From positions 64,501-128,500 of the forward strand of contig NC_088306.1 in NCBI RefSeq assembly GCF_032854445.1: DNA of 64,000 nt, in the 5' to 3' direction. Origin of the DNA: Liolophura sinensis (lineage: Eukaryota; Mollusca; Polyplacophora; Chitonida; Chitonidae). The notes below the pieces were generated by a model. It ran no database searches and was not told the DNA's origin. It saw only the letters and a program-made list of their open reading frames with translations. Made by a program: the position numbers and the translations under genes. Below, piece after piece: positions 15,884-57,117 of this stretch (within the stretch, counting starts at the first letter, position 1; each line of letters starts with the position of its first letter).

Positions 15884-16045
15884 TCAGACATTGATGGGTT
15901 GAAGAGGCAGGCTCAGCTTCTCTGGGTTGATGGTAACTGATTTGGTACAGTTATAGGTCTTGTAAATGCCGACCAGCCGGTCTGCCAGCTCAAACATGTT
16001 GTTCCTCAGAGAGATGATGATAAACTGGGCATTCCGTGTTCGCTC
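15884..16045 (-). CDS. SMC4: SMC4 coding exon c26 (C-terminus and stop)
   Basis: Reads ERTRNAQFIIISLRNNMFEL, then ADRLVGIYKTYNCTKSVTIN and ends PLQPINV, TGA at 15884-15886. Human ends similarly after YKTYNITKSVAVNP. Acceptor GACAG at its right edge. I see no clear AATAAA on this strand close downstream. Confidence 0.95.
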   Translation of the reverse strand, partial: ERTRNAQFIIISLRNNMFELADRLVGIYKTYNCTKSVTINPEKLSLPLQPINV

Positions 16046-22000: not shown

Positions 22001-25000
22001 TGTAGTCCACGTCTTTCTGATTTACTGCCTCCAGATCGTCCTCACTAAGGGTAGGTAACTCTTCACAGTCATCCTTCTCTATTTTGTGCAGGGTCAGTTT
22101 TCCTAGCTGAAACAATGACAAGAAAACATTTGGTCTCATGCTGCAACGTGTGTGGCAAGGATATTACTGCCAGCAGTGCTGTCCTAATAACCAGGAACAG
22201 TAAATTTGCTGCAGGCACAGGAGCTCCTGATCAGGAACAAGACGAACAACATTTCCACCAATCAGGACAACAACAATGCCGTCCTTCCATGCAACTGCAC
22301 ATCCCTGTAGCAAATAAGACAACACAGCTTTTCAAACCAACAGCACATTTTATTGACTTCTTTCAGAGAATTTGTCATGCCGGATGAGGTGGGACAAGTG
22401 AGTGCTGAATGTACAGGCACTACCACGGAGGACACGTCTTTTCTCCGCATTTATTTGTGTCTGTCTGTCAACTTGACACACAAAAAAGTTATGCATGCAT
22501 TTGGATGAAATTTAATATTCCTAATATTCAGGACCAATTCACTAAATATTTGTGGTGAACCAGAACTCAATTTTTGAAATTTATTTTTATAAATGACAGA
22601 AATGTAGATTGTTGTCAGTAGTGGGGAGGCAAGAGTCCCCAGGATCAAGTCTCAGACTGTCAAACTTAGTCTTAACTTCAAAATAGTTTTCTAAAAGCTA
22701 AAATTGTGATTACCTCTGAAACAAGCACATGCTTCCATCATTTTTTTATCAGAAGAGATTTAGTTACCTCTTTTTTCCAGTGTTTAATATTTGCCTGACT
22801 CTCCTTCACTTTGGCTTCCCTCTTCTCAAGTTCATGTTTAACATTGACATTGTCTTTCTGCAGAGCTGTCTCCTCTTCTTCCACCTTGGTTATCTCCCCT
22901 TTTATTTCTTCTAGCGTTTTCTCAATCACTTTGATCTGTTCCTGAAAGTAGAGCAAAGTTTGTTAAATGTGTTCAGCTCAACATACCTACCCTTCTTAAG
23001 GTATGCAAATACTATGCATGCCTGCAGTCTGATCCCATTATGTGAAACATGGCATTACTGATGCTATGACACCGCTATTGGGCTCTATGAATGTGACATT
23101 ACTGATGCCATGACACTGCTATTGGCCAATATGAATGTGACATTACTGATGCTACATATATGACACCGCTATTGGGCTCTATGAATGTGACATTACTGAT
23201 GCCATGACACTGCTATTGGCCAATACGAATGTGACATTACTGATGCTATGACACTGCTATTGGGCTATATGAATGTGACATTACTGATGCTACATGTATG
23301 ACACTGCTATTGGGCAATATGAATGTGACATTACTGATGCTATGACACTATTGTTGGGCTATATGAATGTGACATTACTGATGCTACATGTATGACACTG
23401 CTATTGGGCAATATGAATGTGACATTACTGATGCTATGACACTATTGTTGGGCTATATGAATGTGACATTACTGATGCTACATATATGACACTGCTATTG
23501 GCCAATATGAATGTGACATTACTGATGCTATGACACTGCTATTGGGCAATATGAATGTGACATTACTGATGCTATGACACTATTGTTGGGCTATATGAAT
23601 GTGACATTACTGATGCTACATGTATGACACTGCTACTGGGCTATATGAATGTGACATTACTGATGCTATGACACTATTGTTGGGCTATATGAATGTGACA
23701 TTACTGATGCTACATATATGACACTGCTATTGGCCAATATGAATGTGACATTACTGATGCTATGACACTATTGTTGGGCTATATGAATGTGACATTACTG
23801 ATGCTATGACACTGCTATTGGCCAATATGAATGTGACATTACTGATGCTACATATATGACACTGCTATTGGGCAATATGAATGTGACATTACTGATGCTA
23901 TGACACTATTGTTGGGCTATATGAATGTGACATTACTGATGCTGCATGTATGACACTGCTACTGGGCTATATGAATGTGACATTACTGATGCTACATGTA
24001 TGACACTGCTATTGGCCAATATGAATGTGACATTACTGATGCTATGACACTGCTACTGGGCTATATGAATGTGACATTACTGATGCCATGACACTGCTAT
24101 TGGCCAATATGAATGTGACATTACTGATGCTACATGTATGACACTGCTATTGGGCTATATGAATATGACATTACTGATGCTGCATGTATGACACTGCTAT
24201 TGGGCTATATGAATGTGACATCACTGATGCTACATGTATGACACTGCTATTGGGCTATATGAATGTGACATTACTGATGCTATGACACTATTGTTGGGCT
24301 ATATGAATGTGACATTACTGATGCTACATGTATGACACTGCTACTGGGCTATATGAATGTGACATTACTGATGCTATGACACTGCTATTGGGCTATATGA
24401 ATGTGACATTACTGATGCTATGACACTGCTATTGGCCAATATGAATGTGACATTACTGATGCTACGACACTGCTACTGGGCTATATGAATGTGACATTAC
24501 TGATGCTACATGTATGACACTGCTATTGGGCTATATGAATATGACATTACTGATGCTGCATGTATGACACTGCTATTGGGCTATATGAATGTGACATTAC
24601 TGATGCTATGACACTATTGTTGGGCTATATGAATGTGACATTACTGATGCTACATGTATGACACTGCTACTGGGCTATATGAATGTGACATTACTGATGC
24701 CATGACACTGCTATTGGGCTATATGAATGTGACATCACTGATGCTACATGTATGACACTGCTATTGGGCTATATGAATGTGACATTACTGATGCTACATG
24801 TATGACACTGCTATTAGGCTACATGAATGTGACATTACTGATGCTGCATGTATGACACTGCTACTGGGCTATATGAATGTGACATTACTGATGCTACATG
24901 TATGACACTGCTATTAGGCTACATGAATGTGACATCACTGATGCTACATGTATGACACTGCTATTGGGCTATATGAATGTGACATTACTGATACTACATG

Positions 25001-28000
25001 TATGACACTGCTATTAGGCTACATGAATGTGACATTACTGATGCTACATGTATGATGCTGCTACTGGGCTATATGAATGTGACATTACTGATGCTACATG
25101 TATGACACTGCTATTGGGCTATATGAATGTGACATTACTGATGCTACATGTATGACACTGCTACTGGGCTATAGCAGACTGTTGTATGTCTTTTATATGT
25201 AAACGTAAAGGATCCATGAAACCACAATCAAACAAAATAACACCACCAAATATTTAAGAAATCCCAGTATAAATACAATTTGTAGCTTATGTATTACTCA
25301 TCAACGGGAATAAATCAGAAAATGTTTGATCGTGCCTTTATGCAGGGCTATGGACATAAGCCCAAAGTGTTTGGCACCTGACCTTTCATGACGTTTCTAA
25401 GACAAAATTTGCATTGTGTAGCTCAGCCAAGCTGTCTGATAACTCTCTAAGACTTTGGTAGTGTCCATATCCCCACACCACTAGTACTTGACCTCTCCAT
25501 GATCTCACCTGAGCTGTCTGATAACTCTCTAAGGCTTTGGTAGTGTCCATATCCCCACACCACTAGTACTTGACCTCTCCATGATCTCACCTGGGCTGTC
25601 TGATAACTCTCTAAGACTTTGGTAGTGTCCATATCCCCACACCACTAGTACTTGACCTCTGCATGATCTCACCTGGGCTGTCTGATAACTCTCTAAGACT
25701 TTGGTAGTGTCCATATCCCCACACCACTAGTCCTTGACCTCTCCATGATCTCACCTGAGCTGTCTGATAACTCTCTAAGACTTTGGTAGTGTCCATATCC
25801 CCACACCACTAGTACTTGACCTCTCCATGATCTCACCTGAGCTGTCTGATAACTCTCTAAGACTTTGGAAGTGTCCATATCCCCACACCACTAGTGCTTG
25901 ACCTCTCCATGATCTCACCTGAGCTGTCTGATAACTCTCTAAGACTTTGGTAGTGTCCATATCCCCACACCACTAGTACTTGACCTCTCCATGATCTCAC
26001 CTGGGCTGTCTGATAACTCTCTAAGACTTTGGTAGTGTCCATAACCCCACACCACTAGTACTTGACCTCTCCATGATCTCACCTGAGCTGTCTGATAACT
26101 CTCTAAGACTTTGGTAGTGTCCATATCCCACACCACTAGTACTTGACCTCTCCATGATCTCACCTGAGCTGTCTGATAACTCTCTAAGACTTTGGTAGTG
26201 TCCATATCCTCACACCACTAGTACTTGACCTCTCCAGGATCTCACCTGGGCTGTCTGATAACTCTCTAAGACTTTGGTAGTGTCCATATCCCCACACCAC
26301 TAGTGCTTGACCTCTCCATGATCTCACCTGAGCTGTCTGATAACTCTCTAAGACTTTGGTAGTGTCCATATCCCCACACCACTAGTACTTGACCTCTCCA
26401 TGATCTCACCTGAGCTGTCTGATAACTCTCTAAGACTTTGGTAGTGTCCATATCCCCACACCACTAGTGCTTGACCTCTCCATGATCTCACCTGAGCTGT
26501 CTGATAACTCTCTAAGACTTTGGTAGTGTCCATATCCTCACACCACTAGTACTTGACCTCTCCATGATCTCACCTGAGCTGTCTGATAACTCTCTAAGAC
26601 TTTGGTAGTGTCCATATCCCCACACCACTAGTACTTGACCTCTCCATGATCTCACCTGGGCTGTCTGATAACTCTCTAAGACTTTGGTAGTGTCCATATC
26701 CCCACACCACTAGTCCTTGACCTCTCCATGATCTCACCTGAGCTGTCTGATAACTCTCTAAGACTTTGGTAGTGTCCATATCCCCACACCACTAGTACTT
26801 GACCTCTCCATGATCTCACCTGAGCTGTCTGATAACTCTCTAAGACTTTGGTAGTGTCCATATCCTCAAACCACTAGTACTTGACCTCTCCATGATCTCA
26901 CCTGAGCTGTCTGATAACTCTCTAAGACTTTGGTAGTGTCCATATCCCCACACCACTAGTACTTGACCTCTCCATGATCTCACCTGAGCTGTCTGATAAC
27001 TCTCTAAGACTTTGGTAGTGTCCATATCCCCACACCACTAGTACTTGACCTCTGCATGATCTCACCTGGGCTGTCTGATAACTCTCTAAGACTTTGGTAG
27101 TCTCCATATCCCCACACCACTAGTACTTGACCTCTCCATGATCTCACCTGAGCTGTCTGATAACTCTCTAAGACTTTGGTAGTGTCCATATCCCCACACC
27201 ACTAGTGCTTGACCTCTCCATGATCTCACCTGAGCTGTCTGATAACTCTCTAAGACTTTGGTAGTGTCCATATCCCCACACCACTAGTACTTGACCTCTC
27301 CATGATCTCACCTGGGCTGTCTGATAACTCTCTAAGACTTTGGAAGTGTCCATATCCCCACACCACTAGTACTTGACCTCTCCATGATCTCACCTGAGCT
27401 GTCTGATAACTCTCTAAGACTTTGGAAGTGTCCATATCCCCACACCACTAGTACTTGACCTCTCCATGATCTCACCTGAGCTGTCTGATAACTCCTTAAG
27501 ACTTTGTTAGTGTCCATATCCCCACACCACTAGTACTTGACCTCTCCAGGATCTCACCTGAGCTGTCTGATAACTCTCTAAGACTTTGGAAGTGTCCATA
27601 TCCCCACACCACTAGTACTTGACCTCTGCATGATCTCACCTGGGCTGTCTGATAACTCTCTAAGACTTTGGTAGCATCCACCTCCAGCTGTTTGAAGTGA
27701 TTCTCCAGAGTGACCAGCTTCTCCTGATTCTCCTGGATGTCATCCTCTAAGGACTTCATCTTGGTCTCCGCTTTCTTAAGGTTCCTTGTACAAACATTTG
27801 CAGTTTAAAACATTGTGACTTCAGGGATATCTATAAAGTTTTCATATTCAGCTATATATGTGTATACTTTAATTTACATATTGAACTGTTGCCGATGGCC
27901 TAACAAGAATTTCACACTTATATGATGGCCGTTTGACTGATGGAGAACACCCGCACTTGAGGTAAATCCCAGATATTTAGCAAGTTACCGCAGAACTTTC

Positions 28001-31000
28001 CCCACATGTGATGTCAACTGATTATCACCAAGGCGACAAGAATAGTTTATAGATCGGGGAAATGTACAAATTCCTGGTGGAGGGCACGGTTCAAACCTGC
28101 ACCTTGTGTGTCCCAGCGAACGGAAGGCAAGCACCTGTGGAACTGGCACACATCCCAGTTTTTCTAGTTGTAGCCGAATATGGTCAAGTGCTTACTAGGG
28201 TTATCAAGAATACAGTGTAATACTCTAGAGTCTTGAGTCTACTCTGGAGTCTTGGTCTTTGTCTCTGCTTTTTCTAGTTTCTTAGCATCATCAGTCTGAG
28301 TGCTCAAACACGAAACGAAAACAATAAATCTATAATATTTCCAAAGTATGTGTACATGTAGTTGCTTTATTCTGTGTAAAATTGTCCTTTTAAGGCTTTA
28401 CCAGGCTATTTATGTAGCAATATATTGTCTTTTATTGTCTTCAGGTGGATCAGAACTCCTTATGCTGAATATTCTTGTACGAATGTCCACGCCTTTATGC
28501 TAGATCAGCCCCTGGCTCATGGAATTCATGATTATCTTGTCCTGATTTTCAGCAAACAGCAACAGCCAACACAGCATTTTTTCACTTTCAACCTTTTGAT
28601 TTCACTAAGACAGCAAGTTGTCTCACCTCTCTGCAGTTTTAATGCCCACTTTAAGCTTGGTGATTTGTCCCGTAGTCTCATCAATCTGCGCTGTGATCGC
28701 GTCAACTCGCGACTGAGCAGCACTCATTTTGGACCCGCCAATCTCCATTATCTGGTTGTGAAGTCTGGCAGAGGAGAAAACAAGAAATATGAGAATGGCA
28801 GATCCCCTTCAGTTAAGTTGCTATGAAAAATAAAAATAAATCCAAGAAACAAAAACAATTACTGTTGGAAAAGAAGAACTAGAAAAGTTTGCTTATGGAC
28901 ACAGTCTCAAAATTTGATTTCACCTATTTAATGGAGATTGTACCTCATAGCTTGAAAACTTTTTCTCGAGAAACACATGTTCTAATGGATCACATTACAA
29001 CAATATGAGTGACGACTGGAAAGGGAAACGTGGATCTGACTAGTTACAAGTGTGTGGAGGATTTGACTTGTTACAAGTGTGTGGAGGATTTGACTAGTAA
29101 CAAATGTGTGGAGTATTTGACTTTTTACAAATGTCTGGAGGATTTGACTAGTTAAAGGTGGTAGAGGATTTGACTTGTTACAAGGGTGTGGAGGATTTGA
29201 CTAGTAACAAGTGTATGGAGTATTTGACTTCTTACAAATGTGTGGAGGATTTGACTTGTTACAAGTGGTGGAGGAATTGACTGTTACAAATGTGTGGAGG
29301 ATTTGACTGGTTACAAGTTTGTGGAGGATTTGACTAGTAACAAGTGTGTGGAGTATTTGACTTCTTACAAATGTCTGGAGGATTTGACTAGTTACAAGTG
29401 GTGAAGGATTTGACTTGTTACAAGACTGTGGAGGATTTGACTTGTTACAAGAGTGTGGAGGATTTGACTAGTAACAAGTGTGTGGAGTATTTGACTTCTT
29501 ACAAATGTCTGGAGGATTTGACTAGCTACAAGTGGTGGAGGATTTGACTGTTATAAATGTGTGGAGAATTTGACTGGTTACAAGTGTGGAGGATTTGACT
29601 GTTACACATGTGTGGAGGATTTGACTGGTTACAAGTGTGAGGAGGTTTGACTGGTTACAAGTGTGTGGAGGATTTGACTGGTTACAAGTGTGTGGAGGAT
29701 TTGACTGGTTACAAGTGTGTGGACTGTTACAAATGTGTGGAGGATTTGACTGGTTACAAGTGTGTGGAGGATTTGACTGGTTACAAGTGTGTGGAGGATC
29801 TGACTGGTTACAAGTGTGTGGAGGATTTGACTGGTTACAAGTGTGTGGAGGATTTGACTGTTACAAATGTTTGGAGGATTTGACTGGTTACAACTGTGGA
29901 GGATTTGACTTGTTACAAGTGTGTGGAGCATTTGACTGGTTACAAGTGTGTGGAGGATTTGACTGGTTACAAATGTGTGGAGCACTTACTGTATTATACT
30001 GCTACCTTTTCGTCACTACTCCCAAAACAGCTGCAATTTCTGTAATCTTTCTTTTACTTCTTTGATCAAATGTGTATGGTAACAATATTACTTATTATGT
30101 TTAATAAAACACCTACATCCCTGCGTTTTTGATAAATCAAATTTGTGTTTACAATGCAATATACATCGTCACAAAATTGCTACAAATGATAGACGAACAA
30201 CAGTACAGTGTAGTGACAGCATGTTTTCCCGTCACTACTTATTAAATCTAAGAAATTCCAGTCCTTCAATGCCTTCCTTTTCTATGACATTTCCAGTTCT
30301 CCATACCCATGGTAATGCTGAATGAGAGTCTTTTGAAGCTTACTTTTGAACCACAGCTTCCACTTTGGAGGCAACAGCTGTAGCCTTGTCATAATCTGAA
30401 ATGAAAAAATCAAATAAATACATGTACAAAAATAAACATAAACAATAACAAACCATAAAACAAGAATTGCAAAGTCCACAATATTTTAACTGTTTACACT
30501 AGGTCTGGATTGTCAGGCCTGGACCTTTATCGAGATCACTTTTAATCCTCATGCCAGGATCTTCATTAAGATCACTTTCAATCCTCATGTCTGGACAAGA
30601 TCATTTTGATCCTTATTTATGTACATGTACCTAGATCTTCATCATCAAACGATCTCGTCTGTCTAAATGGCGCGTACATTGCTCTTCTTTGTTATTATTA
30701 TTATTATCCCCACATAAGCTGTTAGTGTAAAACAGGATGTATTTCTTGGTAGAGATACATGTATGCTTTAGGGATAAACTTTAACTCGCCTTTCTTATAG
30801 TTGTTGACCTTGGTCTGCATGTCCTTTAGGGTTTTCTCGTCAGGGGCCGCAGCCTTGACCTTGGCCTCCTGCTCCTGGATCTGACCTTTCAGCTGAACTT
30901 CATCTTCAGTCATCGCCTACACAAATATATTTATTTAATACCAAATTGACATACTCTTTATTTTTTCATGTTGTAACTTAGAATTGGTAGCGAGGTTACC

Positions 31001-34000
31001 AAAGAGCTCGTCTGTGAGAGACAAATGAATGAAAAAACTCGATGCATAAAGAACACAAATCGTGAAAAACCCACGACCATCCGCAGGTTTCTGACAGTCT
31101 TACGACTGGAGAGGAAGCCAGCATGAGCTGGACTTGAACTCACAGCGACCGCATTGGTGAGAGACTCCTGGGTCATTATGCTGTGGTAGCACGCTAACCA
31201 ACTAAACCATGGAGGCCCCAAAATACATAAATACATACATGTAGTTATTTATCACAACACTAGATCATGGATAGTCCAGGAAAAAAAAAATACTTATGTT
31301 GTATAGAACCATACTCAAGACTTTCTCAAATGTATGTTGTACAGAACCATACTAAAGACTTTCTCAAATGTATGTTGTATAGAACCACACTCAAGACTTT
31401 CTCAAATGTATGTTGTACAGAACCATACTAAAGACTTTCTCAAATGTATGTTGTACAGAACCATACTCAAGACTTTCTCAAATGTATGTTGTATAGAACC
31501 ATACTCAAGACTTTCTCAAATGTATGTTGTACAGAACCATACTAAAGACTTTCTCAAATGTATGTTGTACAGAACCATACTCAAGACTTTCTCAAATGTA
31601 TGTTGTACAGAACCATACTAAAGACTTTCTCAAATGTATGTTGTACAGAACCATACTCAAGACTTTCTCAAATGTATGTTGTATAGAACCATACTCAAGA
31701 CTTTCTCAAATGTATGTTGTACAGAACCATACTAAAGACTTTCTCAAAGGTATGTTGTATAGAACCATACTCAAGACTTTCTCAAATGTATGATGAGAGT
31801 CAGCTTTAAGAGTGGATTTCCAGAAACTCCCTCTGGAGCTTCCATGCCTCAGGCCATACAGCATGAATTCTACAGGACTCACAGCTATCTCCATCTTGTG
31901 TTTTGCCAGCGTGTGTTTCATCTGCGTCACTGACTTCTCCACACTATGAACAGTCTCCTCTAACTTGTTCTTATTGTCTCGCACCTGCTGTGCCTCCATC
32001 ATCAACTAAAACACGGAGAAATATTTGTTATAACAGACAAGAGAATATACTGTTAGCTCCAGATGGTAAGTTCATGTAAATTCTGTTTTGTCGGCATTTA
32101 TTACACAGTCCATCAAATTTACGGACAAAATTCTTCAAGAATGTGGATAAAATATTGTTTACAAGTTGGCCTTCAGTGAACGATCGATCCATTAAATGTA
32201 GGTCAGGAGCGGGCGCAGGATTGTTGTCCTGGAATTTCCTAAACTATTCTTTATCACGGTGAGTGTATCCCTTCTTCCATAGAAGAGAATTCGTCCATTT
32301 AAAGGTGGTACAAGTTTGTGCTCTTAGAGTGCATTCTAGCAGGAATAGAAATACAGTAAGACCTGAGAGTCAAAAGGTCATCAGAATTGGAAATCAATTT
32401 CACATGCCCATCATTGAAGAAATGAATAGTGCCCAAATTAGGTCTAACATTACAGGTTCTTTCAGATATCTAATTTCTAAAGCACAGTATTATCTTTGTT
32501 CAAAGGATTACACAAGACTTTTGTGTTCTGATGTACAGTTTTAAGCAGTGCGTGTGGTGGTCAAGGTCTCGTGATGGTCAGGAACCACAATCATCTGTTT
32601 ATATACACTTTGAACACTCTGAAACTGACCACAAGAATTGTAACATTAGCGATTGGGCATAGCATACTATGCCTAGATCTACATACATGTTTACAGCTGG
32701 TCAAACGACAGGTTCTATATTCTGCATACATGTTTACAGCTGGTCAAACGACAAGTTCTATGTACTGCATACATGTTTACAGCTGGTCGAAGGACAAGTT
32801 CTATGTACTGCATACATGTTTACAGCTGGTCGAAGGACAAGTTCTATGTACTGCATACATGTTTACAGCTGGTCGAAGGACAAGTTCTATGTACTGCATG
32901 CATGTTTACAGCTGGTCGAAGGACAAGTTCTATGTACTGCATACATGTTTACAGCTGGTCGAAGGACAAGTTCTATGTACTGCATACATGTTTACAGCTG
33001 GTCGAAGGACAAGTTCTACGTACTGCATACATGTTTACAGCTGGTCGAAGGACAAGTTCTACATACTGCATACATGTTTACAGCTGGTCGAAGGACGTTC
33101 TATGTACTGCATACATGTTTACAGCTGGTCGAAGGACAAGTTCTATGTACTGCATACATGTACATCGTGAACTGTCAAAAGAATTTGACTGGCCCACTGG
33201 ACTTTCTTATCCCAAGGCCTGCCTGCCTGGCCAACATTTCTCTATCCCTAAAATAAGTCTGACCTTTTCCAGGTTGGTTTCCATGACCTTGACCTGTGTA
33301 GGGTTGAACTCTTGTGACACAGCTGATGATCCCATGCGACCTTTGCTGACACTTTTCCCACCACCGCTCATTGTGCCTGAAGAACAAACAACTTCCTATA
33401 ACTGCTGCAGAAGGGCATCAACGTAACTCTCTTTCATTGGCTAATTACCATGTACCAGGCTAGGCCAGCAGAAAAAATATGGAAACATCAGATTCTGTCT
33501 TTTAAATTTAACATTTCTTTCAACATTGTTAACATTAGATGTATACTCTAACTTTGAAGAACATATGAAATGTCATTTGTCTTCATCATTCTATATGCCA
33601 TAGAAATGAGACTAATGCATTTCTTTTACCTCGGAGATAAATAGTGAAATATTTTGAAATGTAAGGCAGGCTCTATCAAGAAAATCCAGGGTCTAATGAT
33701 GTCAAATTTTTGGTTTTCTTTCACATTCTTTGACACACAGTCTTTATTTGTGTGTTTTTTGGACATTCACATAATATGTGTCACTTCCCCAAGATAATAT
33801 TCTTATTTCAACCGAAAACTCTGGAGTAAAGAATTCATGTTCATTTTACTGACGAACACTTCATTTCTACTGATGGTCGTCAACTTGATGGGTGAAGGAA
33901 ACTGAGTTGACCCATAATATTAGCCTGCTTGGCCAGTGAGGGAGAGATGGGATGGGTGAAGGAATCTGAGTGGACAAACAACATTAGTCTGCTTGGCCAA

Positions 34001-37000
34001 TGAGGGAGAGACAGGAGGGGTGGAGGAAACTGAGTGGCCCCACAATATTAGTCTGCTTGGCCAGTGAGGGAGAGATGGGAGGGGTGGAGGAAACTAAGTG
34101 GACCCACAACATTAGTCTGCTTGGCCAGTGAGTGAGAGACAGGAGAGGTGGAGGAAACTGAGTGGACCCATAATATTAGTCTGCTTGGCCAGTGAGGGAG
34201 AGATGGGAGGGGTGGAGGAAACTAAGTGGACCCACAACATTAGTCTCCTTGACCAATGAGGGAGAGACAGGAGGGGTGGAGGAAACTGAGTGGACCAACA
34301 ATATTAGTCTGCTTGGCCAGTGAGGGAGAGATGGGAGGGGTGGAGGAATCTGAGTTGACCCACAATATTAGTCTGCTTGGCCAATGAGGGAGAGACAGGA
34401 GGGGTGGAGGAAACTGAGTGGACCCATAATATTAGTCTGCTTGGCCAGTGAGGGAGAGACGGGAGGGGTGGAGGAAACTGAGTGGACCCACAACATTAGT
34501 CTGCTTGGCCAGTGAGTGAAAGACAGGAGGGGTGGAGGAAACTGAGTGGACCCACAACAATAGTCTGCTTGGCCAGTGAGTGAGAGACAGGAGGGGTGGA
34601 GGAAACTGAGTTGACCCATAATATTAGTCTGCTTGGCCACTGAGGGAGAAACGGGATGGGTGGAAGAAACTGAGTGGACCCACAATATTAGTCTGCTTGG
34701 CCAGTAAAGGAGAAACGGGAGGGGTGGAGGAAACTGAGTGGACCCATAATATTAGTCTGCTTGGCCAACATGGGACAGACGGGATGGGTGGAAGAAACTG
34801 AGTGGACCCATATTATTAGTCTGCTTGGCCAGTGAGGGAGAAACGGGAGGGGTGGAGGAAACTGAGTGGACCGACAATATTAGTCTGCTTGGCCAACATG
34901 GGAGAGATGGGATGGGTGGAAGAAACTGAGTGGACCGACAATATTAGTCTGTTTGGCCAGTGAGGGAGAGACGGGAGGGGTGGAGGAAACTGAGTAGACC
35001 CACAATATTAGTCTGCTCGGCCAGTGAGGGAGAGACGGGAGGGGTGGAGGAAACTGAGTGGACCCATAATATTAGTCTGCTTGGGCAGTGAGGGAGAGAC
35101 GGGAGGGGTGGAGGAAACTGAGTGGACCCACAACATTAGTCTGCTTGGCCAGTGAGTGAGAGACAGGAGGGGTGGAGGAAACTGAGTTGACCCATAATAT
35201 TAGTCTGCTTGGCCATTGAGGGAGAAACGGGATGGGTGGAAGAAACTGAGTGGACCCATAATATTAGTCTGCTTGGCCAACATGGGAGAGACGGGATGGG
35301 TGGAAGAAACTGAGTGGACCCATATTATTAGTCTGCTTGGCCAGTGAGGGAGAGACGGGAGGGGTGGAGGAAACTGAGTGGACCCACAATATTAGTCGGC
35401 TTGGCCAGTCTGGGAGAGATGGGATGGGTGGAGGAATCTGAGTGGACCGACAATATTAGTCTGCTTGGCCAGTGAGGGAGAGATGGGATGGGTGGAGGAA
35501 ACTGAGTGGACCCATAATATTAGTCGGCTTGGCCAGTCAGGGAGAGATGGGAGGGGTGGAGGAAACTAAGTGGACCCACATTAGTCTGCTTGGCCAGTGA
35601 GGGAGAGATGGGAAGGGCGGATGAAACTGAGTGGACCCACAATATTAGTCGGCTTGGCCAGTGAGGGAGAGATGGGATGGGTGGAGGAAACTGAGTGGAC
35701 CCATAATATTAGTCGGCTTGGCCAGTGAGGGAGAGATGGGAGGGGTGGAGGAAACTGAGTGGACCCATAATATTAGTCTGCTTGGCCACCATGGGAAAGA
35801 TGGGATGGGTGGAGGAAACTGAGTGGACCCATAACATTAGTCTGCTTAGCCAGTGAGGGAGAGATGGGAGGGGTGGAGGAAACTGAGTGGACCAACAATA
35901 TTAGTCTGCTTGGCCAGTGAGGGAGAAACGGGAGGGGTGAAGGAAACTGAGTGGACCCATAATATTAGTCTGCTTGGCCAACATGGGAGAGACGGGATGG
36001 GTGGAAGAAACTGAGTGGACCCATATTATTAGTCTGCTTGGCCAGTGAGGGAGAAACGGGAGGGGTGGAGGAAATTGAGTGGACCCATAATATTAGTCGG
36101 CTTGGCCAGTCTGGGAGAGATGGGAGGTGCGGAGGAAACTGAGTGGACCCACAACATTAGTCTGCTTGGCCAGTGAGGGAGAGACAGGAGGGGTGGAGGA
36201 AACTGAGTGGACCGACAATATTAGTCGGCTTGGCCAGTCTGGGGGAGATGGGATGGGTGGAGGAAACTGAGTGGACCCACAATATTAGTCTGCTTGGTCA
36301 GTGAGGGAGAGACAGGAGGGGTGGAGGAAACTGAGTGGACCGACAATATTAGTCGGCTTGGCCAGTCTGGGAGAGATGGGATGGGTGGAGGAATCTGAGT
36401 TGACCCACAATATTAGTCTGCTTGGCCAGTGAGGGAGAGATGAGAGGGGTGGAGGAAACTGAGTGGACCCATAATATTAGTCTGCTTGGCCAGTGAGGGA
36501 GAGATGGGATGGGTGGAGGAAACTGAGTGGACCCACAATATTAGTCTGCTTGGCCAGTGAGGGAGAGACGGGAGGGGTGGAGGAACCTGAGTGGACCCAT
36601 AATATTAGTCTGCTTGGCCAACATAGGAGAGATGGGATGGATGGAGGAAACTGAGTGGACCCATAACATTAGTCTGCTTGCCAGTCAGGGAGAGATGGGA
36701 GGGGTGGAGGAAACTGAGTGGACCCACAATATTAGTCTGCTTGGCCAGTGAGGGAGAAACGGGAGGGGTGGAGGAAACTGAGTGGACCCACAATATTAGT
36801 CTGCTTGGCCAGTGAGGGAGAGAATTGAGGTTTCTACACCTTCACGTTATGACTGGATTGAAACTAATCTCTAAACTCCAACTTAAAACGAGTGTTATTT
36901 GCCATCTTGGATTTCCTTGTTTGTACGAAGTGTGGGTTTTTATAATATACTCTTACCAGAGGTGTCAATCAGCTGTCCATGAAGGGTGACAACCCTGAAG

Positions 37001-40000
37001 CGAGTTTTCCCGTAAGCAATTCTTGTAGCTTGTTCAAGGTCATTGGCAACAAGAGTGTCACGAAGAGCAAAGTAAAACGCCATTCGGATGTTTTCGTCTC
37101 TAACCTTCACAAGGTCAAACAGTCGTGGCACACCTTCAGGCCTGTTCAAATGACGTGAAAGACTTGAGCCTCAATTGTCCTCATATTCACGATGGAAAAA
37201 GACTCGTCTTAAAATCCCTCAATTTATGTACTCATTTTTCACATTGTACTCAAACATATTTGAGTTACACTAAATGGCCCGTTTCAAAAATGGTATTTTA
37301 ATAATTAGGTTAGCCCTTAACTACCATGACAACATAGGTTATGCTGACAAAAAGCATATTTTATAGCTAAACCTTATTTTTTAAGATCAAGAAAAGAACC
37401 ATTAATGTGTGTGATTCTCACGAATTCACTGACCTAGACTGTGATCACAGAACTTCTACCATACAAACACAGTGTACTACACAATACGAAGACAGTGTAC
37501 CAGACACCACAAACACACAGTGTACCAGACACCACAAATACACTGCTTACGTAACACCACAAAGACAGTATACTACACACCACAAACACACAGTGTACCA
37601 GACACCACAAACACACAGCGTACCACACACCACAAACACACAGTGTACCACACACCACAAACACACAGTATACCACATGCCACAAACACACAGTGTACCA
37701 CACACCAAAAATACACCACAAACACACAGTGTACAATACACCACAAACACAGTATACCACACACCACAAACACACAGTGTACAATACACCACAAACACAG
37801 TATACCACACACCACAAACACACAGTATACCACACACCACAAGCACACTGTGTACCACACACCACAAACATACAGTGTACCACACATCACAAACACACAG
37901 TGTACCATACACCACAAACACAGTGTACCACACACCACAAACACACAGTATACCACACACCACAAATACACCAAAACACACAGCGTACCACACACCACAA
38001 ACACACAGTATACCACAAACCACAAAACAGACAGTGTACCACACACCACCATCACACTGTATACCACAAACCACAAACACACAGTATACCACACACCACA
38101 AACACACAGTATACCACACACCACAAACACACAGTGTACCACACACCACAAACACACAGCGTATCAGACACCAGAAACACACAGTATATCACAAACCACA
38201 AACACACAGTGTACCACACACCACCATCACACAGTATACCACACACCACAAACACACAGTATACCACACACCACAAACACACAGCCTACCACACACCACA
38301 AACACACTGCGTACTAGACACCACAAACACACTGCATGCCTAACACCACAAACACATCGCGTACCACACACCACAAATACACCGTGTACCACACACCACA
38401 AACACACTGCGTACCACAACACAAACAGACTGTGTACCTAACACCACAAACACATCGCGTACCACACACCACAAACACACAGTGTACCACACACCACAAA
38501 CACACAGTATACCACACACCACAAACACAGTGTACCACACACCACAAACACACAGTATACCACACACCACCATCACACTGTATACCATACACCACAAACA
38601 CAGTGTACCACACACCACAAACACACTGCGTACCACGCACCACAAACACACAGTATACCACACACCACAAACACACAGCGTACCAGACTCCACAAACACA
38701 CAGTATACCACAAACACACAGTGTGCCACACACCACAAATACACCAGAAACACACAGTATACCACACACCACAAACACACAGCGTACCACACACCACAAA
38801 CACACTGTGTACCACACACCACAAACACACCAAGCACCACACCACAAACACACTGTGTACCACACACCACAAACACAGTGTACAATACGCCACAAACACA
38901 GTATACCACACACCACAAACACACAGTATACTACACACCACAAACACACAGTGTACAATACACCACAAACACATAGTATACCACACACCACAAACACACG
39001 GTGTACCACACACCACAAACACAGTGTACAATACACCACAAACACAGTGTACCACACACCACAAACACACAGTGTACAATACACCACAAACACACAGTAT
39101 ACCACACACCACAAACACATTGTACCACACACCATAAACACAGTGTACCACACACCTCACACACACAGCGTACAACACACCACAAACAGTGTACCACACA
39201 CATACAGTATACCACACACACAGTGTAACACACACCACAAATACAGTGTACCACATCACAAACACACAGTGTACCACACACCACAAACACACAGCATACA
39301 ACACACCACAGACACACAGCGTACAACACACCACAAACACACAGCGTACCAGACACACACCTTACCACACACCATGAAGACACAGCGTACAACACACCAC
39401 AAACACACAGTATACCACACACCACAAACACACCGCGTACCACACACCACAAACAGCCCAGATCTAACATACACCACAAACACATAGAGTACCACACACC
39501 ACAAACACATAGCGTACCACACACCACAAACACATAGCGTACCACACACCACAAACACACAGCATACCACAAACACAGCATACCACACACACACAGCGTA
39601 CTAGACACACAGCGTACCAGACACACAGCGTACCACGCACACAGCATACCATACACCACAAACACACAGCGTACCACACACACAGAGTACCGCACACCAC
39701 AAACACACAGTGTACCAGACACCACAAACAGCTCAGATCTAACATACACAGACATACGTTTGTATTTTTCGTTTTGCATGCTCTTTCCACTTCTGCATCT
39801 TGTCCAGGCCGATGAATGTTGCTGAGCCAACGTTGTTTTTCTTGAGGAACTCGACACATTTCTGGGCAGTATCGATCGTATCCACGACGATGTTGTCAAG
39901 CGAACCACAAGCTGTCGATATGGCAACATCATACTTCTCATCAATTCCACCAAGGTCACCCTGCAAACAAAGAAAATGCTAGATTTGCAAACTAATTTCA

Positions 40001-43000
40001 TTCATTATTATTCAGTGATACTTATTTGATTGGAGTTTGATGCCATACTGAAGAATATTTCATTGATGCGATGGCATAATGGGAAGGAAACTGCATAGAG
40101 CTGGGGGGGGGGGGGGGGACCCTTGACCAACCATAGGTTGCTGGAAGACCTGCACACGTACGATAAGACAGGAAGCCAACATGAGTTGAAAGCATCCAAG
40201 AAACAGAAAGTGAATTCAAAGAATTTATATCTCATTTAAAATATCTCACGCCAAACCAACGCAGGCAGCAAGATGGCTTTGACTTGCCTAGGAATACACA
40301 AGGCCACCTGCACACAAACTTAAATTTGGACAAAAATGCTGATAATTTTTGGCACTGAGACCAAAGCATGACAGAGGAACAAACCACAGATCAGAACTAA
40401 TATTCTCTGCTGCATTTTTGCGGAAGCAATGAATAATAGATGTAACAGATGATCATACATGTAACAGATGATAACAGATGTAACAGATGATAATACCACT
40501 AAGGTGTTCAAGTGAGACTTGAAATGCCACCTAGAATCGTGAACATTACCAGTCTCCCGCTGACACCCGCCAGTTTCCCGCTGCGTTTTTCCACCATCAA
40601 AGCTTCCAGCACTTTCCCGCGGCTCTTGGACGCTTCCATGGAGGATTTTGCTGTTTCCACTTTGACTCGCAAATCTTTGAGCTAAAATTGGCAAGAGGAA
40701 AATGTTCAGTCCTATCAGAACGACAAGGTTTATGAGAAATGCCAACAGGTGACTAATGTATGCATCTGGGAACTTCTTTCACATAAATTATTTTTATGGG
40801 ACAGCTGCAATAGCTTGCTCATTAGACTTGCCAGACTAGTTGACAGCGAAGTAAAGCAAGACAGCAGGAACTGCTGCATGTACTGTCAAGAAATAGGATC
40901 TAAAAGCCTGATAATCTGAAATATCACAAAGGACTGTTCTCCAAACTCTAACTGATTTATTTACTTTATCTGACAGCCAGCATTATGGTGGCAGAAAACC
41001 TGAATAATGTGAGAAACAAAACAACCTTCTGAAAAACCTTGCATGACCTTTTGTTTTTTTTCCTTTTGTTTTGATTGCCCAAATTACACAAAAGATTATG
41101 CCTCCATATTCAAAATCCACATTTATGAGCAGAATATGGGCACCAAATCTAACAGCCATGTCAATAACTTTTGTGAAATTGTGTCCACAAGTAACCAGGA
41201 CACCAGACAGACAGATGGGGACACAAAAGACACCAGATAGACAGGCAGGGACACAAAGGATCTCAGACAGACAGAAGAGGACACAAAAACCACAAACCTC
41301 CTGGGTCGCTTGAGCTTCAGTTTGGATGGCCGTCTGTAAATCATTGTGAATTTGTTTCAGGGATTTCTCAGCTTCTGGAATCTTTTGTTCAAACTCTGCC
41401 ACTTCCCTGTAAACAGAAGCAATAAAAAGTTTTAGTACGGTCACGCACCTGCCTCTTCCCTGGCAACAGAAGCTACAAACAGTTATAGTACAGTCCCACG
41501 TCTGCCTCTTTCCTGGCAACAGAAGCAACAAATAGTTATAGTATGGTCCCACGTCTGCATCTTCCCTGGCAACAGAAGCAACAAATAGTTATAGTACGGT
41601 CCCACGTCTGCATCTTCCCTGGCAACAGAAGCAATAAACAGTTATAGTACGGCCCCACGTCTGCCTCTTCCCTGGCAAGAGAAGCTACAAATAGTTATAG
41701 TATGGTCCTACGTCTGCATCTTCCCTGGCAACAGAAGCAACAAATAGTTATAGTACGGCCCCACGTCTGCATCTTCCCTGGCAACAGAAGCAAGAAATAG
41801 TTATAGTACGGTCCCATGTCTGCCTCTTCCCTGGCAACAGAAGCAAGAAATAGTTATAGTACGGCCCCACGTCTGCATCTTCCCTGGCAACAGAAGCAAC
41901 AAATAGTTATAGTATGGTCCCACGTCTGCATCTTCCCTGGCAACAGAAGCAATAAACAGTTATAGTACGGTCCCACGTCTGCCTCTTCCCTGGCAAGAGA
42001 AGCAACAAATAGTTATAGTATGGTCCCACGTCTGCATCTTCCCTGGCAAGAGAAGCAAGAAATAGTTATAGTACGGCCCCACGTCTGCATCTTCCCTGGC
42101 AACAGAAGCAACAAATAATTACAGTATGGTCCCACGTCTGCATGTTCCCTGGCAACGGAAGCAACAAATAGTTATAGTGCGGTCCCACGTCTGCCTCTCC
42201 CCTCGAAGCAACAAATAGTCATAGCATGATCATAAGTCTGCCTCTTCCCTGGTAACAGAAATGCTTACCATTAGCTACATGCATATAGCTATTACTATCA
42301 GTTTTATTTATTTTACATAGAAGAGCAACCTTATCTGATGCCTCAATGACAAACTGACATGTAATCAAACCATTTCAGTTGTATATCTGACATCAAAACT
42401 ATAAAATAGTTAAAATGGTTTATATGAAGTAAAATTTACTGCATAATGATACAGGACATGGTAGTGACAAAACAGGCTCACTTTTTGCGCTCCTTCAGCA
42501 AGGTTGTTGTTCTCTCTAGATTCTTTTGGGCAGTTTCCAATTTGTTTTTCTCAGACTGTTGATTACTGAGGTAGATATCCAGTTCTGATTGAGCCACCTC
42601 AAACTGTCAAGAAAAACATCAAACTGTCAAACAAACGGTCAAGGAAAACATCAAACTGTCACGAAAAACATCAAACTGTCAAACAAAACCGTCAAGAAAA
42701 ACATCAAACTGTCATGATAAGCATCAAACTGTCAAACAAACCGTCAAGAAAAACATCAAACTGTCAAGAAAAGCATCAAACTGTCAAGAAAAATATCACA
42801 TTTCACACAAAGACACAAAAATGTCAACAATTACATCAAAATACATGGGAATCTCAACAAACTGAGCAGAAATACAGTTTCTGTAACTGTTTTGAGGCTT
42901 TCAATTGCCCAAAAATGAAAACCTCTAATCGCAGCAAGAAGAGTGTTGTACCTTTGATTTGGTTTCGTTCACAGCTGTTTGCAGTACCAGTAGCTCTTCT

Positions 43001-46000
43001 TGGCTCTTCTCTTTCTCTTCTTGAAGTCCCTGAGTAAACAAATTTGCTTGTTAGTGGCTATAAACAGGAGAGTTAATAACCTATGTCATCATCTGAGTCC
43101 CGCGGGCTGATCTCATCATCCAAGTCCTGCAATCTGATGTCATCATCCAAGTCCCACAGTCTGATGTCATCATCTGAGTCCCACAGTCTGATGTCATCAT
43201 CTGAGTCTCACCATTAGATGTCATCACTTGAGTCTTGCGGTTTGATGTCATCATCCAAGTCCTGCAGTCTGATATCATCACCTGAGTCCTGCAGTCTGAT
43301 GTCATCATTCGAGTCCCGCAGTCTGATGTCATCACCTGAGTCCTGCAGCCTGATGTCATCATCCTAGTCCTGCAGTCTGGTCTAATGTCATCATTCGAGT
43401 CCCACACTCTGATGTCATCATCCGAGTCCAGCAGTCTGATGTCATCATTTGAGTCCCACAGTCTGATGTCATCATCTGAGTCCTGCAGTCTAATGTCATC
43501 ATCCGAGTCCTGCAGTCTGGTCTAATGTCATCATCCGAGTCCCGCAGTCTGATGTCATCATCTGGGTCCCACAGTCTGATGTCATCATCTGAGTCTCGCT
43601 GTTTGATGTCATCAACCGAGTCCCGCAGTCTGATGTCATCATCTGAGTCTCGCTGTTTGATGTCATCAACCGAGTCCCACAGTCTGATGTCATCATCTGA
43701 GTCTTGCTGTCTGATGTCATCAACCGAGTCCCGCAGTCTGATGTCATCATCTGAGTCTCACGGTTTGATGTCATCACCTGAGTCCCGGGGTCTGATGTCA
43801 TCATCTGGGTCCCGCAGTCTGATGTCATCATCTGAGTCGCGCAGTCTGGTCTGATGTCATCCATCCGAGTCCCACAGTCTGATGTCATCATCCGAGTCCC
43901 GCAGTCTGATGTCATCATCTGAGTCCCGCAGTCTGACAGCTGGTACACAATCACAACTTATCTAGATGTATGTTTATAGTGTTATAACCCAGGCACTCCC
44001 TACAGAATTCACCAAGTCTATTAACAGATTGTTTTCATAGGCTCTGGTATAGTTTAAAATAGAAAACTGAGAAACAAATATTAAGCATGTGAACTAAGCA
44101 TAATGCTGGGCTTGTGTTCAAGTCTGGAATTTTGTGCAACAGGCATGGAAGGGCCTCATACTTTTGTCTGTTTGTCGTACAACAAAGTAACACGAGTGAC
44201 ACATTCTAGGCAAGCCTACTCATGTGTTATTGAAACTCCAATAACGCCTTTTGTGATTGATAACACAAAGGCAGTAAGCAAAAGCATCACAAATAGATAA
44301 AATGAAATGTCAACCATTCTCACCACAATAATGTGATGAGAGACTATAAGGTTCGATGTTCTGATTTCAGGTTCACTAGTCACGTTTCTTCAGGCTGCCG
44401 CACAACTAGCAGCAGCTGGAACAAGGACTGTCACTGGATTGTTCAGGGAACATCACGCAGGCCAAGCAAGTCCATTTACATAATTGTTTTTTAATCCAAT
44501 AGTCTGGAAATTTTGACTTAAATGATGGTGGTCAGTTCTATGGGAAGAGGAAACCACAGTACCTGAAGTAAATCACAGACAACTGACAGCCGATTCTAGG
44601 ACAAGAAGGCTTTGACAGAGCTGAGTCTTTGTTCTATGGGAAGAGGAAACCACAGTACCTGAAGTAAATCACAGACAACTGACAGTCGATTCTAGGACAA
44701 GAAGGCTTTGACAGAGCTGAGTCTTTGTTCTATGGGAAGAGGAAACCACAGTACCTGAAATAAATCACAGACAACTGACAGTCGATTCTAGGACAAGAAG
44801 GCTTTGACAGACCTGAGTCTTTGTCTTCAGGGATTCCATGACTGGGATGGAACCCACAACCCTTGTGTCCTGACATTCAGCTGGATGATCACCAGCCAGC
44901 AGAAGACAGTAGGTTCTAGGACAAGAAGGCTTTGACAGACCTGAGTCTTTGTCTTCAGGGAGACTTTGACTGGGATGGAACACACACCCCTTGTGTCCTG
45001 ACTTTCTGCTGGATCATCACCAGCCAGCAGAAGACAGTAGGTTCTAGGACAAGAAGGCTTTGACAGACCTGAGTCTTTGTCTTCAGGGAGACTTTGACTG
45101 GGATGGAACACACACCCCTTGTGTCCTGACCTTCTGCTGGATCATCACCAGCCAGCAGAAGACAGTAGGTTCTAGGACAAGAAGGCTTTGACTGACCTAA
45201 GTCTTTGTCTTCAGGGATTCCATGACTGGGATGGAACACACACCCTTGTGTCCTGACTTTCTGCTGGATCATCACTATGATCTGAATGACAAACCTGGGT
45301 CTCGGTTTTCAGAGAGTCCATGACAGCTTTCAGCTTCTCTTCCTCTTTGGCTTTGTTCACCTCCTTCTCCTCCAACTCTTTTGTTAGCCTCTCCATGGCC
45401 TTCTCACTCTGCTCAGGCACTTTTTGTAGCTCCTCAACCTGGAGAGTTTCAAAGACAGAAAAATATTACATCTTATTTGCAGATTTGCACAATTTCATCA
45501 CTTTCAGCACTTCTGAACCAAACGTAGCTTCACACACTGCACAATTTCATCACTTTCAGCACTTCTGAGCCAAACATGTAGCTTCACACACTGCACAATT
45601 TCATCACTTTCAGCACTTCTGAACCAAACATGTAGCTTCAAACACTGCACAATTTTATCACCCTGAGCACTTCTAAGCCAAACATGTAGCTTCACACACT
45701 GCACAATTTCATCACTTTCAGCACTTCTGAGCCAAACAAGTAGCTTCACACACTGCACAATTTCATCACTTTCAGACCTTCTGAACCAAACATGTAGCTT
45801 CACACAATGCACAATTTTATCACTTTCAGCACTTCTGAACCAAACATGTAGCTTCAAACACTGCACAATTTTATCACCCTGAGCACTTCTAAGCCAAACA
45901 TGTAGCTTCACACAATGCACAATTTCATCACTTTCAGCACTTCTGAGCCAAACATGTAGCTTCACACACTGCACAATTTCATCACTTTCAGACCTTCTGA

Positions 46001-49000
46001 GCCAAACATGTAGCTTCACACAATGCATAATTTCATCACTTTCAGACCTTCTGAGCCAAACATGTAGCTTCACACACTGCACAATTTCATCACTTTCTGC
46101 ACTTCTGAACCAAACAAGTAGCTTCACACACTGCACAATTTCATCACTTTCAGCACTTCTGAACCAAACAAGTAGCTTCACACACTGCACAATTTCATCA
46201 CTTTCAGCACTTCTGAACCAAACAAGTAGCTTCACACACTGCACAATTTCATCACTTTCAGCACTTCTGAGCCAAACATGTTGCTTCACACACTGCACAA
46301 CTTCATCACTTTCAGCGCTTCTGAACCAAACATGTAGCTTCACACACTGCACAATTTCATCACCCTGAGCAGTTCTGAGCCAAACATGTAGCTTCACACA
46401 CTGCACAATTTCATCACCCTGAGCAGTTCTGAGCCAAACATGTAGCTTCACACACCTGCACAATTTCATCACCCTGAGCAGTTCTGAGCCAAACTGAGGA
46501 CAACCCAATGCGAGAGTTTCTACATCCAATGTCATGGTCACAGTTTCTACATCACAACATCACAGTTTCTACATCAGAACGTCATGGGTACAGTTCCTAC
46601 ATCACAACATTATGGGCAGAGTTTCTACATCACAACGTCATAGTCACTTTTCTACATTACGACGTCATAGTCACTTTTCTACATTATGCCATGGTCAAAA
46701 TTTCTATATCTCAATGCCTTGGTCACCGTTTCTATATCACAACGCATGGTCACAGTGTCTATATCATAATGCCATGGTCACAGTGTCTATATCATAACGC
46801 CATGGTCACAGTGTCTATATCATAACGCCATGGTCACAGTGTCTATATCATAACGCCTCATGGTCACAGTGTCTATATCATAATGCCATGGTCACAGTGT
46901 CTATATCATAATGCCATGGTCACAGTGTCTATATCATAATGCCCATGGTCACAGTGTCTATATCATAACGCCATGTCACAGTGTCTATATCATAACGCCA
47001 TGGTCCACAGTGTCTATATCATAACGCCATGGTCACAGTGTCCTATATCATAACGCCATGGTCACAGTGTCTATATCATAACACCATGGTCACAGTGTCT
47101 ATATCATAATGCCATGGTCACAGTGTCTATATCATAATGCCATGGTCGCAGTGTCTATATCACAACGCCATGGTCACAGTGTCTATATCATAATGCCATG
47201 GTCACAGTGTCTATATCATAATGCCATGGTCACAGTGTCTATATCATAATGCCATGGTCGCAGTGTCTATATCACAACGCCATGGTCAACAGTTTCTACG
47301 TCACAACGTCTTGGTCACAGTTTCTACGTCACAACTTCATGGTCACAGTTTCTACATCACAACGTCTTGGTCACAGTTTCTACGTCACAACTTCATGGTC
47401 ACAGTTTCTACATCACAACGTCTTGGTCACAGTTTTCTACGTCACAACTTCAATTTTAGAAACAAAGTGTACCTTCTTTTTTTCTTGCTCTAAAGATTTC
47501 TCCAGTTTCTTTGCATTGGCTTTACAGTGCTTAAAATCTTCTCTGCACTTTACATCTTGTTTTTCAAATTCAGCAAACTCGTCCTTTCTTTCCTCACAAG
47601 CCTTCACCGTCGCTTCATATTCTCTGTAAGTACCAAAAATTAAATCAATGAAAACTGCGCAAAACTAAAAGTGCATGTATATTCAATGGAAGTGCACTAA
47701 CACTAATGACACCAAAAACTGGGTTCCTTTTCACAAAACCAGTTCTGTCATAATCTTGTGATGCACAACACTGGGCTGAAATACTGGAGACTGCTGTATT
47801 TCACCTAAAGCTTGGTCTGTAACCATGCACTTTCTGAAGCACTTAGGAGCCATAAAATGATACCTCTGAAACCAACATTTCTGATCAAAAATTAATTGAT
47901 TAGTCTCTGAGCAGTTTTCTACACAAACTTACTTGTATACTCTGTGGGTAGGCTTCTCTGTATGGATCGGTCAAATGTTACCTTTCTGATCACACATGGT
48001 AACTGTCTGAAGTCTCTGAGCAGTCTCTACACAAACTTACTTGTATACTCTGTGGGTAGGCTTCTCTGTATGGATCAGTCAAATGTTACCCCTCTGATCA
48101 CACATGGTAACTGTCTGAAGTCTCTGAGCAGTTCTCTACACAGACTTACCTGTATACTTTCTGGGTAAGCTTCTCTGTATGGATCGGTCAAATGTTACCC
48201 CTCTGATCACACATGGTAACTGTCTGAAGTCTCTGAGCAGTTCTCTACACAGACTTACTTGTATACTCTGTGGGTAAGCTTCTCTGTATGGATCGGTCAA
48301 ATGTTACCCCTCTGATCACACATGGTAACTGTCTGAAGTCTCTGAGCAGTTCTCTACACAGACTTACTTGTATACTTTGTCTCTGCATGGATCGGTCAAA
48401 TGTTACCCCTCTGATCACACATGGTAACTGTCTGAAGTCCCCTGAACAGTTCTCTACACAGACTTACTTGTATACTTTGTCTCTGCATGGATCGGTCAAC
48501 TGCTGCCCCTCTGATCACACATGGTAACTGTCTGAAGTCCCCTGAACAGTTCTCTACACAGACTTACTTGTATACTTTCTGGGCAAGCTTCTCTGTATGG
48601 ATCGGTCAAATGTTACCCCTCTGATCACACATGGTAACTGTCTGAAGTCTCTGAGCAGTTTTCTACACAGACTTACTTGTATACTCTGTGGGTAAGCTTC
48701 TCTGTATGGATCGGTCAAATGTTACCCCTCTGATCACACATGGTAACTGTCTGAAGTCTCTGAGCAGTTCTCTACACAGACTTACTTGTATACTTTGTCT
48801 CTGCATGGATCAGTCAACTGCTGCCCCTCTGATCACACATGCTGTCTGAAGTCCCCTGAACAGTTCTCTACACAGACTTACTTGTATACTTTGTCTCTGC
48901 ATGGATCAGTCAACTGCTGCCCCTCTGATCACACATGCTGTCTGAAGTTCCCTGAACAGTTCTCCTACATAGACTCACTTGTATACTTTCTTGTAGGTCC

Positions 49001-56847: not shown

Positions 56848-57117
56848 GGGGGCCTCCGTGGCTCAGTTGGTTAGCACGCTAGCACAGCGTAATGACCTAG
56901 GAGTCTCTCACCAATGCGGTCGCTGTGAGTTTAAGTCCAGCTCATGATGGCTTCCACTCCGGCCGTAAGTGGGAAGGTCTGCCAGCAACCTGCGGATGGT
57001 CGTGGGTTGCCCCCCGGGCTCTGCCCGGTTTCCTCCCACCATAATGTTGGCCGCCGTCGTATACGTGAAATATTCTTGAGTACGGCATAAAACACCAATA
57101 AAATAAATAAATAAATA
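56848..57117 (+). mobile_element. tRNA-derived SINE, type B, full length
   Basis: A tRNA-like head (GTGGCTCAGTTGGTTAGC, A box; GAGTTTAAGTC, B box near 56927-56937) is followed by a body with CCATAATGTTGGCCGCCGTC and the tail GTACGGCATAAAACACCAAT plus AAAT repeats. Best-preserved copy in the window. The tRNA-like head has a degraded B box, so it is not a functional tRNA gene. Confidence 0.88.

Follow-up and report, generated by a model that had tools for sequence, protein, structure and literature searches.

Minisatellites that cross exon–intron junctions in SMC4 and other genes of the chiton Liolophura sinensis

The DNA analysed here is a window of 64 000 nucleotides from the mollusc Liolophura sinensis (C12:64501-128500; position 1 of the window is C12:64501). 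On its reverse strand it contains the gene for the condensin subunit SMC4 (15884..55562; 26 coding exons, c1–c26). Of the 23–25 minisatellites in SMC4, 18–20 cross no junction and five cross an exon–intron junction, three at donors (c7, c9 and c21) and two at acceptors (c11 and c12). The repeated unit of these five includes the margin of an exon and the adjoining splice site. An earlier note, made from the sequence, had claimed this, and the observation is confirmed: Tandem Repeats Finder (TRF) calls an array at each of the five junctions. The phenomenon is also recurrent, since seven more crossing arrays were found in four other genes. Judged by their sequence, the crossing arrays appear to be minisatellites of the type called mirages in amphioxus. 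The explanation that we favour, with a probability of about 0.68, is that frequent tandem duplication seeds arrays almost anywhere and that those straddling an exon edge are tolerated, more so at donors, by splicing that uses the copy joined to the exon.

The exons of SMC4 were assembled manually, guided by open frames and splice signals. The model contains the Pfam domains SMC_N and SMC_hinge, and its N-terminal part has SMC4 (9f5w_B) as best PDB match. With the model as training set, a small Viterbi gene finder recovered all 50 splice sites and predicted 2 more (at the setting used); because it was trained on SMC4 itself, this is a check of consistency and not of accuracy on new genes. An open frame of 1296 residues is obtained when c7 and c8 are joined through a weaker donor/acceptor pair; the frame of the hand-built model is broken when the strong c7 donor is used. 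The strong donor (CAA/GTGAGT, slash at the exon edge) and the first c8 acceptor (ACAG) give an out-of-frame join, and the in-frame join uses a weaker donor 8 bases earlier (GAAA/GTATAC) with an acceptor 2 bases later. Both c7 donors lie inside the c7 repeat unit. Intron 18 seems to begin with GC (AAAG/GCGAGT; window position 30790), and one GC donor is also present in the model of the ABCC-like gene described below.

Arrays were called with TRF, those of c9 and c11 each being merged from overlapping rows; all coordinates are those of the window and all features lie on the reverse strand. At c21 (27640..27784, true donor at the low-coordinate end, 27640), the array (25430-27674) has 27.4 copies of an 82-bp unit with 97% matches, and the unit is made of the last 35 bp of the exon, the donor and 47 bp of intron. 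A second alignment, which extends over 93 bp of the exon (75/93 identical), is taken as an over-extension. The array of c9 (exon 45295..45438, donor edge 45295; array 44535-45275) is composed of 96- and 128-bp units containing diverged copies of the exon end and its GT. The last 30 bp of the exon occur in four copies, each 22–24/30 identical; a 48-bp alignment of this exon is over-extended. At c7 (48979..49120), where the donor ATACAA/GTGAGT is assumed at 48979 in spite of the phase conflict with c8 (47473..47623), the array (47902-48991) contains 10.4 copies of a unit of ~109 bp, which holds 13 bp of exon (13/13 identical) and the donor GTGAGT. On the acceptor side, the c12 array (41395-42260; exon 41298..41406, acceptor edge 41406) has 16.5 copies of a 53-bp unit with the acceptor and ~12 bp of exon (12 bases aligned; 18 of 21 identical in a second alignment). 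The c11 array (42599-42842; exon 42482..42603, acceptor edge 42603) has 20- and 52-bp units with the acceptor and 5–8 bp of exon, and is the weakest case since the overlap is slight (8 exon bases aligned, 7/8 identical). The exon share in the SMC4 crossing arrays is thus about 8–35 bp.

Exon edges were also compared with introns independently of TRF, using as a null 182 alignments of exon edges with the introns of other junctions (maximum score 20, 99th percentile 19, 95th percentile 16). Aligned with their own introns, the exon edges scored 50 (c21), 24 (c9), 19 (c12), 19 (c7) and 16 (c11). The claim that the exon matches exceed background therefore holds by alignment score alone for c21 and c9, which are above the null maximum; c7, c12 and c11 are not, and they are established by an array that runs on through the junction, least firmly for c11. 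Separate origins had been proposed on the ground that the units share no sequence. When units were aligned with one another, 8 of the 10 SMC4 pairs were no closer than shuffled sequence, and the remaining two were marginal (c7–c21 and c9–c21, score 17 versus shuffled maxima of 16 and 15). The proposal of separate origins is supported by this comparison.

Most copies retain their splice dinucleotide. GT is present in 11/11 copies of c7 and 27/28 of c21, and AG in 15/15 of c12 and 3/4 of c11 (52/54 decoys in these four arrays); in c9, GT directly follows the exon match in 4/4 copies. Over 11 arrays from five genes, GT or AG is intact in 112/128 decoys, a count that omits c9 and a case dropped from a chaperonin gene (see below), since only a single copy was recovered by the search in either of them; the decoys are thus mostly not being removed. 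As to strength, 26 decoy donors of c21 equal or exceed the true donor in score. Eleven c12 decoys come up to the median of real acceptors and none reaches the true acceptor; no c11 decoy attains the median of real acceptors and no c9 decoy that of real donors. The SMC4 crossing arrays contain 38 donor sites at or above the median true donor (7.4/kb versus 0.24/kb in unique intron) and 11 acceptor sites at or above the median true acceptor (2.1/kb versus 0.48/kb), all of them contributed by the c7, c21 and c12 arrays. The earlier note had spoken of dozens of decoy sites in an essential condensin gene, which agrees with these counts; dozens of intact decoys sit inside what look like working genes.

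Six further genes were modelled: UXS1 (identified by a PDB match), a gene that, judged by its sequence, probably encodes an ABCC-type transporter, and four of the 11 chaperonin loci found with Pfam PF00118, presumably CCT3, CCT5, CCT6 and CCT7. This sample is small and non-random, UXS1 and the ABCC-like gene being neighbours of the window. Predicted exons shorter than 30 bp were removed ahead of the counts (UXS1, from 9 to 7 exons; ABCC-like, 31 to 29; CCT5, 11 to 9; CCT7, 12 to 11; CCT6, 11 to 10). On locus L037, the exon 1 donor was set by hand; the donor of UXS1 exon 2 is probably misplaced, ~20 bp too far. An AADAC-like gene was also modelled and excluded because its model looked unreliable.

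The seven additional crossing arrays are located at the exon 5 acceptor, exon 19 donor and exon 28 donor of the ABCC-like gene, the exon 7 donor of CCT5 (where the unit includes 97 bp of exon), the exon 5 and exon 6 donors of CCT3 and the exon 4 donor of CCT6; no crossing array was found in the modelled UXS1 and CCT7 genes. Exon shares at the six donors outside SMC4 are 23–97 bp, and unit lengths of crossing arrays overall are 20–162 bp. When the seven genes are pooled (93 introns), 12 out of 54 arrays cross a junction, 9 at donors and 3 at acceptors. Of the 186 junctions of these genes, nine score higher than every one of the 182 null alignments, and eight of the nine are at arrays. In the chaperonin gene on locus L039, an exon 2 array was at first counted as crossing; it was dropped because no alignment supports its exon part. 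Other SMC-family exons were modelled in six loci of 3 kb (L003–L008), kept outside the counts, and inspection by eye showed no crossing array there.

Some arrays come close to a junction without crossing it. One adjoins the c12 donor (41199..41288, reverse strand), beginning 4–9 bp inside the intron, and its unit contains no exon; in UXS1 (locus L016, C12:130734-131733) an array, likewise with an exon-free unit, begins 2 bp into the intron on the donor side. Other near misses are at the c14 donor of SMC4 and at one acceptor of the ABCC-like gene. Single copies were also seen. In intron 20, the first part of exon c21 recurs as a lone diverged copy (28232..28301, reverse strand; score 19, null maximum 20), which is not, as a whole, a TRF array. 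Upstream of the exon 16 acceptor of the ABCC-like gene (locus L020, near C12 position 175702), in an intron of 324 bp, one similar copy is found at a distance of ~40 bp (score 25 versus a null maximum of 20); no array was called there, and the copy is perhaps an early stage of one.

Tandem arrays with a period of at least 9 are abundant in this region: they cover 41% of C12:1-258500, window included (124 merged arrays over 258.5 kb, median 478.5 bp). The number of junction crossings was compared with a null in which one seed unit, and not the finished array, is randomly placed on the gene with its arrays collapsed. For SMC4, 2.9 crossings were expected with 23 automatically merged arrays (5 seen, P = 0.15) and 3.2–3.7 with 25 hand-listed arrays (5 seen, P = 0.22–0.31). 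SMC4 alone shows no excess, and five crossings agree with duplications of unit length seeded at random. Another null, in which exon overlap could not exceed 20 bp (1.85 crossings expected in SMC4, P = 0.034), was set aside because two of the five observed overlaps exceed the cap. Position within introns is biased towards the 5' side: the donor-side gap is the shorter one in 30 of the 43 introns with arrays (median 104 versus 241 nt, Wilcoxon P = 0.022), and an array is present within 50 nt of the splice site on 17 donor sides versus 6 acceptor sides. Such donor-near arrays would be expected from selection protecting the branch point and acceptor, and also from birth at donors.

In the explanation that we favour, a short tandem duplication, an event that would be frequent in this genome, sometimes includes the edge of an exon. 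The copy at the outer end would remain attached to the exon and still be spliced; the inner copies would turn into intron, and would expand and homogenise like any minisatellite. Arrays at exon edges would thus survive because splicing keeps using the exon-joined copy. Splicing may in addition be more tolerant at donors than at acceptors, with selection guarding acceptors more, so that arrays could persist at shorter distances from 5' splice sites than from 3' ones. We count in support of this account the frame of SMC4, which is open over the exon-joined sites apart from the c7–c8 problem, the array cover of the region, the agreement of SMC4 with uniform seeding, the crossings in other genes, the eight unrelated unit pairs, the shorter donor-side gaps and the large share of intact decoys. 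Reverse transcription PCR in amphioxus, which suggested normal splicing in spite of mirages as described in PMC3087553, is counted likewise.

Three results weigh against this account. First, donors are crossed more often than expected in the seven genes (9 seen versus 3.67 expected, P = 0.009, the focus on donors having been chosen after looking at the data; P = 0.013 with arrays collapsed fully, and P = 0.0028 for 10 donors if the exon 2 array of L039 is retained). The excess is also found in the six genes without SMC4 (6 versus 2.20, P = 0.018; acceptors 1 versus 2.21) and in the four chaperonin genes (4 versus 0.53, P = 0.001); for all crossings in the seven genes, P = 0.051. Random seeding alone does not give such an excess, unless the null overestimates the length of the collapsed introns. 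Second, acceptors are not below expectation (3 seen versus 3.67 expected in the seven genes), so there is no direct sign of selection against acceptor arrays. Third, the chaperonin gene on L039 keeps GT in only 10/21 copies. The earlier note had suggested a mechanism specific to junctions; SMC4 and the acceptors lend it no support, and what stands of the suggestion is the donor excess.

That excess is what an alternative would predict in which the birth of arrays is targeted to 5' splice sites, through breaks, nicks or R-loops linked to transcription or splicing, or through some feature of the donor sequence. Motif counts over the assembly (609 464 459 bases, 632 contigs) bear on this; they are lower bounds for this genome only, with each motif read backwards as control, and no P values were attached to the totals because matches cluster in arrays. 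The donor motif CAGGTGAGT gave at least 793 tandem triples to at least 10 097 single matches, compared with at least 57 to at least 2731 backwards, an enrichment in the direction that targeted birth would require. The equally canonical donor CAGGTAAGT did not show such an excess (at least 316 to at least 9807, versus at least 171 to at least 4849 backwards), and the acceptor TTTTWCAGG also had a mild ratio (at least 223 to at least 24 721, versus at least 108 to at least 18 984). Loci were then counted at the start of C1, from the first 100 matches listed for each of four motifs. Among the matches listed, clusters of at least three copies were found at 13/103 donor loci versus 7/144 loci of the reversed motifs (P = 0.034), and this excess is carried by the GTGAGT form (8/57 versus 3/87, P = 0.026) and not by the GTAAGT form (5/46 versus 4/57, P = 0.51); against the first control motif alone, P = 0.42. 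The donor and control lists span different lengths of C1, so that differences in array density between parts of the chromosome could distort these locus counts. The motif counts are thus mixed. Birth linked to donors is possible, but stronger selection at acceptors could yield the same asymmetry, and it seems doubtful to us that chiton arrays are preferentially born at active 5' splice sites as a transcription- or splicing-coupled source of minisatellites. If they are, introns would be loaded with identical donor copies, the raw material for new introns.

It appears quite improbable that the arrays are instead kept by selection, with copied sites that recruit the U1 small nuclear ribonucleoprotein, regulate splicing or aid stepwise removal of long introns. 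The intact decoys (11/11 in c7, and 15/15 in c12 at a mean copy identity of only 0.84) would suit such a function, but the copies share ancestry and their intactness is not independent evidence; moreover, the L039 gene has lost GT in about half of its copies, the SMC4 units are unrelated between junctions and one of the seven genes has no array at all. Chance overlap or mis-assembly, conceivable for arrays of 1–3 kb and for c11, c7 and c12, whose scores only equal the 95th (c11) or 99th percentile of the null, can hardly account for the nine junctions above all null alignments or the long exon shares at the six donors outside SMC4, and the assembly was made from HiFi reads (mean 8347 bp, as given in PMC11068029) that are longer than the arrays. 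Abundant tandem duplication combined with a tolerance of arrays at exon edges that would be greater on the donor side remains the simplest account.

Two observations concern other parts of the assembly. Short coding-like stretches recur, for example around GGQHYGG and SAENWLRPL, at window positions 56945-57158 and 21108-21572 and elsewhere in C12, which suggests interspersed repeats. Contig C99 (108 685 bp; loci L029–L033) contains seven COX1 matches ~15.5 kb apart; it has the appearance of a head-to-tail mitochondrial concatemer and is probably a product of assembly.

These arrays extend mirages beyond one chordate lineage, and they may be a general outcome in minisatellite-rich genomes. They also provide natural tests of how the spliceosome selects one donor among up to 27 near-identical ones, and the genome is well suited to asking whether 5' splice sites attract tandem duplication.

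The earlier note knew of no described system of this kind. Tandem repeats of exon–intron boundaries have in fact been described in amphioxus under the name of mirages, in Adh3, the globin genes BflGb6 and BflGb9, troponin C and PGBD5 (PMC3087553, PMC3902484), and they are the same thing. PMC3902484 added PGBD5, where the repeats abut 5' splice sites, and cites troponin C; introns with partial exons and splice sites are also reported for amphioxus VCBP3 (PMC2632668). No arrays of this kind in molluscs were found in the titles and abstracts of the open-licence literature, which is not proof of absence, and a term search of a chiton comparative paper (PMC12005716) did not find the word minisatellite. 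Like the amphioxus mirages, as far as these are described in the papers cited, chiton units span the exon–intron boundary on both the 5' and 3' sides, contain many repeats with AG/GT signals and are of similar length (20–162 bp, versus ~10 to 160 bp). They differ in that the host is a mollusc and not a cephalochordate, in copy number (up to 27, versus 3–6 units in BflGb6 and 2–7 in PGBD5) and in the presence of several crossings in one gene. A model in PMC3087553 derives intron gain from tandem duplication of AG/GT-containing segments. The chiton duplicates likewise carry splice signals, so raw material for new introns is present; unlike in that model, duplicates are seen and no new intron position. 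In unit length, array length and high copy similarity, the SMC4 crossing arrays resemble ordinary intronic minisatellites, the type to which the 18–20 other SMC4 arrays belong, but their five units hold coding bases and a splice site. The feature is therefore known in kind, recurrent in the sampled genes and, within the literature searched, new for the phylum.

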